The position numbers and the translations under genes were made by a program. From NCBI GenBank assembly GCA_030616605.1, contig JAUWWY010000002.1:182867-224477 (forward strand): DNA of 41,611 nt, in the 5' to 3' direction. The stretch is from a bacterium (lineage in GTDB: Bacteria; Patescibacteriota; Minisyncoccia; Minisyncoccales; CG1-02-41-26). Positions 7,683-32,596 of this stretch are shown in pieces; the stretch's first letter is position 1, and each line of letters opens with the position of its first letter. Below the pieces are notes generated by a model, which saw only the letters and a program-made list of their open reading frames with translations, ran no database searches and was not told where the DNA came from.

Positions 7683-7848
7683 TGCTCGGCAGTCTCTCTC
7701 GCCATCGGACGCGGTCAATTTCCCCAGCGAGGAAATTCCCGCTCCCTCTCGGCCTCGCTCGTCGCCTTCGCCACGTCAGACGTGGCTTCGGCGACACCAT
7801 GCTCGCTCGGCCTGCGAGAGGCCTATGTCAAGAAAGCTGCCTCGCTTA
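7683..7848 (-). repeat. GC-rich modular palindromic repeat, copy 1 (upstream of topA)
   Basis: Minus strand nearly identical over its length to 32453-32596 (+), with an extra ~20 bp palindrome at 7763-7788. Confidence 0.93.
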
Positions 7849-10364: not shown

Positions 10365-11714
10365 ATGGTAAAATTTCAATCACCAACTGGAATGCGCGAT
10401 CTTCTTGAGGAAGATTTTAAACATTTTCAAAAGATTGAAAGAGTTTGTCAAGAAATAGCAAGATTTTATGGTTTTAAGAGAATCGAAACTCCAATTTTAG
10501 AAGAAAGTGCACTCTTTGAGAAAGGAACCGGTTTTAGCACTGAAATTGTCAAAAAGCAGATGTTTAACTTAGAAACCAAAGGAGGAGACCATTTAGTTTT
10601 AAGGCCGGAAGGAACACCCTCGATTGTTCGAGCCTATCTTGAAAAAGGAATGGAAAGTTTGCCAAAGCCAGTTAAGCTTTGGCATTTTGGTCCCTTTTTC
10701 AGGCATGAAAGACCTCAAGCAGGAAGATACCGCCAGTTTTATCAAGCCGGACTTGAATCTTTAGGTAGTGATTCTTGGATTATAGATTCTCAAATTATCC
10801 AAATTTTTTATAATATATTAAAGAGTCTCGGTTTCAAAAATTTAATCGTTGAGATAAACAGCATCGGTGATTCTCAACACAGGGCTTACTACAAAAAAAA
10901 TTTAGTAAGCTATTTAAAAGATTACCGTAACTCTCTTTGTTCAGATTGTAAAAGGAGATTGCGGGAAAATCCCTTAAGAATTTTAGATTGTAAACAAGAG
11001 AAGTGTCAAAAAATTATCAGAGACGGGACTCCTCAGATTATTGATTATCTTTGTAGAAAATGTAATAATCATTTTAAAAATGTCTTAGAAACCTTGGAAG
11101 AATTAGAGATTTCTTACAAGTTGAATCCTTATTTAGTCCGAGGATTAGATTATTATACCAGAACCGTTTTTGAGATTTTTGAAGAAACAGAACCCACCTT
11201 TTTACCCACCAAAGCCACGTCTGACGTGGCGAAGGCGGGCGCCAGGGATACAGAGAGCGAGGAAGAGAAGAATCAGGAGCCCTTAGCTTTAGCTGGAGGG
11301 GGAAGATACGATGATTTAGTGAAATTATTAGGGGGAAAAGAGACACCGGCTTGCGGTGGCGCTTTAGGAGTAGATAGAATAGTTAATTTAATAAAAAAAA
11401 GAACTAAAAAAACTCGGAAAATTATCAAACATAGAATTTTCTTAGCTCAGATAGGAAAATTTCCCAAAATGAAAGCTTTAAAATTGATGGAAAAGTTTAG
11501 AAAATCTGAAATTAAAATAGCCGAAGCTTTGGATAAAGATTCACTTTCGAGTCAATTGAAATTAGCTGATAAATTGAAGGCTGAATATGTTTTAATTTTG
11601 GGTCAAAAAGAGACCCTTGAAGAAAAAATAATTTTAAGGAATATGAAAACGGGTAAGCAGAAGATAATAGCGATAAAAAAAATAGTTGGAGAAGTTAAAA
11701 AGAAAACAAAATAA
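10365..11714 (+). CDS. hisS: Histidyl-tRNA synthetase with repeat-derived in-frame insertion
   Basis: LRPEGTPSIVRAYLEKG, VRGLDYYTRTVFEI, LAGGGRYDDLVKLLGG motifs; insertion between the last two. Confidence 0.95.
   Translation: MVKFQSPTGMRDLLEEDFKHFQKIERVCQEIARFYGFKRIETPILEESALFEKGTGFSTEIVKKQMFNLETKGGDHLVLRPEGTPSIVRAYLEKGMESLPKPVKLWHFGPFFRHERPQAGRYRQFYQAGLESLGSDSWIIDSQIIQIFYNILKSLGFKNLIVEINSIGDSQHRAYYKKNLVSYLKDYRNSLCSDCKRRLRENPLRILDCKQEKCQKIIRDGTPQIIDYLCRKCNNHFKNVLETLEELEISYKLNPYLVRGLDYYTRTVFEIFEETEPTFLPTKATSDVAKAGARDTESEEEKNQEPLALAGGGRYDDLVKLLGGKETPACGGALGVDRIVNLIKKRTKKTRKIIKHRIFLAQIGKFPKMKALKLMEKFRKSEIKIAEALDKDSLSSQLKLADKLKAEYVLILGQKETLEEKIILRNMKTGKQKIIAIKKIVGEVKKKTK
11212..11237 (+). repeat. 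26-bp palindromic module inside hisS, identical to the module nested at 7763-7788 (minus strand)
   Basis: AAGCCACGTCTGACGTGGCGAAGGCG at both loci. Confidence 0.9.
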
Positions 11715-32411: not shown

Positions 32412-32452
32412 AGGCTTTGGTCTGAAAATCCGAGTCCTGAACTTGTCGAAGG

Positions 32453-32596
32453 GCGAAGGCAGATCTCTTGCCATAGGCCTCTCGGAGGCCGAGCGGGCAT
32501 GGTGTCGCCGAAGGCGACGAGCGAGGCCGAGAGGGAGCGGCAATTTTCTCGCTGGGGAAATTGACCGCGTCCGATGGCGGGAGAGACTGCCGAGCA
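32453..32596 (+). repeat. GC-rich modular palindromic repeat, copy 2 (upstream of pgk)
   Basis: Matches the minus strand of 7683-7848 apart from the nested palindrome and scattered substitutions. Confidence 0.93.

Follow-up and report, generated by a model that had tools for sequence, protein, structure and literature searches.

Near-identical GC-rich repeats before topA and pgk belong to an apparently undescribed family of Y-shaped mobile repeats spread across Patescibacteriota

We analyzed a 41,611-nucleotide stretch of a Patescibacteriota genome of the order Minisyncoccales (assembly GCA_030616605.1, contig JAUWWY010000002.1, positions 182,867 to 224,477; hereafter the window), in which two GC-rich repeats lie ahead of topA and pgk. 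The repeats are real and mobile, and a regulatory role for them is not supported. They belong to a large, apparently undescribed family of structured mobile repeats spread across the phylum. We favor, with a probability of about 0.6, the reading that each is a non-autonomous mobile element of ~130–160 nt that functions as one folded strand, namely the strand as read here, in the shape of a Y.

Aligned with each other, the topA and pgk copies agree at 134 of 142 bases (94%), with one extra 20-nt insertion on the topA side; the ungapped arms are 94% identical over 95 nt and 91% over 57 nt. The G+C content of the two copies is 0.657 and 0.648, compared with 0.29–0.36 in their 500-bp flanks (~65% versus ~33%), which confirms the original prediction of a near-identical, GC-rich pair placed in the same orientation before the two genes. 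Each copy lies just upstream of its gene and codirectional with it, topA being identified by NCBIfam model TIGR01051 and pgk by its top-scoring hits among protein families and PDB entries. In both copies an in-frame ATG within the element (CCGATGGCG) adds ~12 residues ahead of the homologue-supported start. Both fold more stably than shuffled sequence, the pgk copy as DNA (z −4.45) and the topA copy as RNA (z −4.85). BLAST of the organism's own genome (632,766 bases, 8 contigs) added one copy beyond the window pair, located at C4:4928–5079 between pnp and the next gene and directed opposite to both genes.

We then found the element well beyond this genome. Within the window's taxonomic family, BLAST returned two complete copies from a different genus (G010), as well as partial matches that fold alike though their stems are unrelated. 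A covariance model built from ten sequences (R1) detected copies in 13 of the 24 genomes of this family, including at least 26 in one of them (G015). The refined model (R2) detected the element in 110 of the order's 247 genomes and, in a phylum-wide sample, in 32 of 382; these searches scored at most 13 (order) or 8 (phylum) candidates per genome, which makes the copy numbers lower bounds and may have caused some genomes to be missed. The third copy in the same genome and the many copies in related genomes exclude the possibility, considered in the original prediction, that only two exist. No Rfam family reached its gathering score on the element, phages gave no match, the sole plasmid match was 31 bases in an archaeal gene, and a 21-mer had no match in a collection of genome contigs. 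The open-licence papers searched contained no description of this family, nor of palindromic elements or miniature inverted-repeat transposable elements (MITEs) in candidate phyla radiation genomes.

The consensus structure is a Y. Its outer stem has a tandem G.A foot (GC-GA-GG / CC-GA-GC), its hairpin A a bulge of seven bases (GCNNGGT), and its hairpin B a GCT loop. Among 86 copies aligned to the model, 92.9% of cells were paired and 39 of the 41 pairs showed changes on both sides, giving a covariation score of 0.764 versus 0.210 for shuffled and 0.058–0.136 for slid alignments. A MAFFT alignment of ten sequences, not fitted to the model, had double changes in 26 of 35 pairs. Conservation reached 96–100% in 78 sequences less than 85% identical for five bulge positions (G, C, G, G, T), for the loop's G and C, and for an A preceding hairpin B. 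Structural covariation is strong, unlike in the case of random placement without covariation that the original prediction named as counting against it. As for the "chain of small palindromes" first described, GTCGCC/GGCGAC and CAATTT/AAATTG are true helices, whereas GGCCTC-TCG-GAGGCC is not a unit of the conserved fold, in which CCTCTC and GGCC have distant partners. The sense strand out-folded the antisense strand in 81 of 86 copies as RNA and 80 of 86 as DNA, and one specific strand of the element thus appears to be under selection. Two copies in G002 (loci L042 and L053) carry a further structured insert, ~75 nt long, within hairpin B.

The orientation of the element is fixed relative to replication, not to genes, using GC skew as a proxy for replication direction. 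Between codirectional genes in the window's family and G086, 22 copies pointed in the same direction as the genes and 26 in the opposite direction. Copies in a first batch of regions tended to oppose the G-rich strand by local GC skew. Because the idea arose from these data, a second batch (other genomes and a second region of G576) was fetched as a test, and 38 of its 41 copies with an absolute skew ≥0.05 opposed the G-rich leading strand (p 1e-8). Both batches together gave 85 of 102 copies opposing the leading strand, and 30 genomes versus 5, with one tie, in a per-genome count that addresses the incomplete independence of copies within a genome, related genomes not being fully independent either. 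Of 12 copies with both flanking genes on the lagging strand, 10 followed replication rather than the genes. The better-folding strand is on the C-rich strand, the leading-strand template, in 85 of the 102 copies.

Mobility is most evident in two genomes of different genera (G168 and G169), which carry near-identical 233-bp units at eight sites, with inverted repeats as termini (GGGTAAAGT...ACTTTACCC). A perfect 7-bp target duplication was present at six of the sites and a 6/7 match at one, showing transposition of this composite form in the lineage. Among nine genomes from the family of G168, a search for the empty unit, in which the two arms would be joined, found none, all matches being copies of the unit; in one copy from that family the core is mostly deleted, with 55 bp remaining between the arms. 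Three other genomes (G003, G015, and G562) have the core central in other, lineage-specific inverted repeats, and standalone copies in the order show the context TTAA|GCGAGG...CCGAGC|G with no visible target duplication. The Y core is constant, and its outer ends vary by lineage. The REP/MITE-like (REP, repetitive extragenic palindromic) non-autonomous element originally proposed is supported by dispersed copies, strong covariation, the lack of an accompanying open reading frame and, in one lineage, terminal inverted repeats with 7-bp duplications. Loci L032 (G002) and L076 (G003) are apparently one insertion site in two species, with outer stems that differ by compensatory changes; the G003 core at L076 resembles other G003 copies, possibly through conversion between copies.

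Strand-specific folding and replication-linked orientation together suggest that a single strand is recognized at replication forks. Under the reading we favor, a trans-acting enzyme would recognize the folded strand during replication and would place the element in intergenic sites with a directional preference. While the Y core stays as it is, the outer ends would switch from lineage to lineage, presumably matching whichever enzyme is resident, and topA or pgk expression would be affected only incidentally, if at all. Several points weigh against this reading. With its sense strand on the leading-strand template, the element is the reverse of IS608-type elements and is not accommodated by a simple lagging-strand-template model; the bias could also be explained by loss of copies whose better-folding strand sits on the lagging-strand template. 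Genus g3 (G003) is reversed (0 of 5 copies) and G609 is mixed. Clear terminal repeats and target duplications are confined to one lineage, and the 86-copy alignment, being fitted to the model, leans towards the model's structure. Finally, co-occurrence with Y1 transposases, the most evident candidate mobilizers, holds in the order and not in the phylum. A bolder version treats the Y core as a nucleic-acid module that directs itself: its near-invariant folded strand would couple its own insertion to replication by an undescribed mechanism, and the core would be kept phylum-wide with different ends in unrelated carriers. This version strikes us as speculative and improbable.

The Y1 data bear on the possibility, which we consider doubtful, that this is a REP-like element moved on single-stranded DNA by Y1 (RAYT/IS200-type) HUH transposases. 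Element and Y1_Tnp co-occurred in the order (82 genomes with both, 28 with the element only, 50 with Y1 only, 87 with neither; odds ratio 5.1, p 2.4e-9), and the association survived shuffling within families (82 versus 69.9 ± 2.9), while the control DDE_Tnp_1 was more weakly associated with the element (2.2, p 0.054). The TTAA preference on the left flank of standalone copies, together with the lack of a visible duplication, is also as expected for such an enzyme. In the phylum sample, however, Y1 was found in 16 of 32 element genomes versus 182 of 382 overall (odds ratio 1.1), and two genomes that carry the element (G272 with at least 8 copies, G562 with at least 7) had no Y1 match. The element was absent from all 30 Y1 loci searched at E up to 0.01 (one match appeared at E 0.025), the loci inspected bear other palindromes, and the element's polarity is opposite to that of IS608. 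Promising as it looked within the order, the Y1 link was reproduced neither phylum-wide nor when Y1 loci were inspected, and Y1 is therefore kept as a candidate mobilizer only. At Y1 loci L083, L098, L100, L108, and L092, perfect palindromes that differ per genome flank the transposase on both sides, probably constituting REP/RAYT pairs of their own.

A classical MITE, mobilized by a DDE transposase acting via terminal inverted repeats, is unlikely. It would explain the terminal repeats and 7-bp duplications of G168 and G169, whose duplication-bearing copies are unbiased in strand (4 of 7 opposite), consistent with another mover in that lineage. Nevertheless, the core may be a passenger in those units, other lineages are without these ends and have a strongly biased orientation, and most copies show no duplication; moreover, DDE_Tnp_1, the sole DDE family searched, was present in just 31 of 247 order genomes. 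Less probable still is a trans-acting structured RNA, possibly a ribozyme, riding on mobile DNA. Strand-specific folding and unpaired bases that hardly vary across the phylum speak for such an RNA, but more than half of the order's genomes gave no match, copy number ranged from 1 to at least 26, no Rfam relative was found, and a transcribed gene is not expected to show replication-linked orientation. A possible likeness of GGCAUGGU and CUCGCUGG to the hepatitis delta virus ribozyme was set aside, as they stand in a different structural context. A cis-acting mRNA leader (a 5′ untranslated regulator of topA, pgk, and other genes), which the original prediction had read from the gene-start placement, is very improbable and was rejected on orientation. 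Both window copies do precede start codons in sense and in frame, as do most copies in genus g3 in sense, but the family has no gene-relative bias, the third copy is reversed, copies in most other genomes run against the genes, the genes next to the copies are unrelated to one another, and orientation ignores genes and follows GC skew.

The element is small, non-coding, dispersed, and without its own transposase, as is expected of a MITE in the broad sense. Like the structured MITEs ERIC, BOX, Correia, and QMITE2 (reviewed in PMC10969869), it falls within 100–250 nt, is intergenic, gene-less, and dispersed, and has a stable hairpin fold, and some of those also have terminal repeats and 7–9-bp duplications; unlike them, it has a Y core with a two-part invariant signature, phylum-wide compensatory change, lineage-specific ends, and replication-linked orientation. 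With REP/REPIN sequences and TnpA-REP (RAYT) it shares imperfect bulged palindromes, intergenic location, non-autonomy, and strand-specific single-strand features (PMC8266576, PMC3116915, PMC6006769). It differs from them in length (~140 versus 20–40 nt), in the lack of phylum-wide co-occurrence with Y1 genes and of a position beside them, no copies flanking the transposase gene at E up to 0.01 at any of the 30 loci, and in its foot, which is GCGAGG/CCGAGC and not the tetranucleotide GT[AG]G (GTAG). Rickettsia palindromic elements (RPE) are likewise ~150-bp palindromic repeats of small genomes, a likeness by size and fold only, although copies of our element are mostly between genes. IS200/IS605 elements offer a parallel in replication-linked orientation and in recognition of a folded single strand, which for our element would be by analogy (PMC6006769). 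Unlike these, it has no transposase gene and one Y instead of two end hairpins, and its folded sense strand is on the leading-strand template, whereas IS608 acts on the lagging-strand template (PMC6006769).

With the element in nearly half of one order's genomes, the covariance model can be used for annotation. Its near-identical units in two genera make it a marker of recent transposition and inter-genus exchange, and it offers a way to ask if transposition in reduced-genome bacteria is driven by folded single strands. It also calls for caution, as structured "leaders" ahead of genes in these bacteria can be mobile DNA and not riboswitches.

Table 1. Coordinates of the two element copies and their parts in the window
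Feature	Position	Strand	Evidence
Element copy 5′ of pgk, complete Y-shaped unit	32453..32595	+	Covariance model R2, 85.5 bits, full model
Element copy 5′ of topA, complete unit, 20-nt insertion in hairpin A	7684..7845	−	R2, 80.6 bits, full model
Outer stem 5′ strand with tandem G.A foot, pgk copy	32453..32477	+	Pairs with 32569–32595; consensus helices 1–4 90–96% paired, two-sided changes
Hairpin A, pgk copy	32478..32534	+	Consensus helices 5–8, 84–99% paired, double changes
Conserved bulge GCATGGT within hairpin A, pgk copy	32497..32503	+	G, C, G, G, T 96–100% conserved, 78 sequences
Hairpin B, apical CTC-GCT-GGG, pgk copy	32536..32568	+	Loop G and C 99–100% conserved; helix 11 ~88% paired
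Outer stem 3′ strand, end CCGAGC, pgk copy	32569..32595	+	Partner of 32453–32477
Small palindrome GCCACGTCTGACGTGGC inserted in hairpin A, topA copy	7770..7786	−	Missing from pgk copy; same 17-mer in hisS and elsewhere in the genome

The 17-bp palindrome inserted in the topA copy also occurs in frame inside hisS (10365–11714, + strand) at window positions 11214–11230. There it falls within a segment of ~30 residues (275–306) with next to no equivalent in histidyl-tRNA synthetases of solved structure, comparable to an RPE-like in-frame insertion. A reversed control pattern gave no match, and further copies or near copies of the palindrome lie at C7:1272, C7:14915, C7:21570, and C8:38027. Adjoining the pgk copy, CCTTCGACAAGTTCAGG at window positions 32436–32452 is the sole such site in the window and is possibly half of another palindromic repeat.
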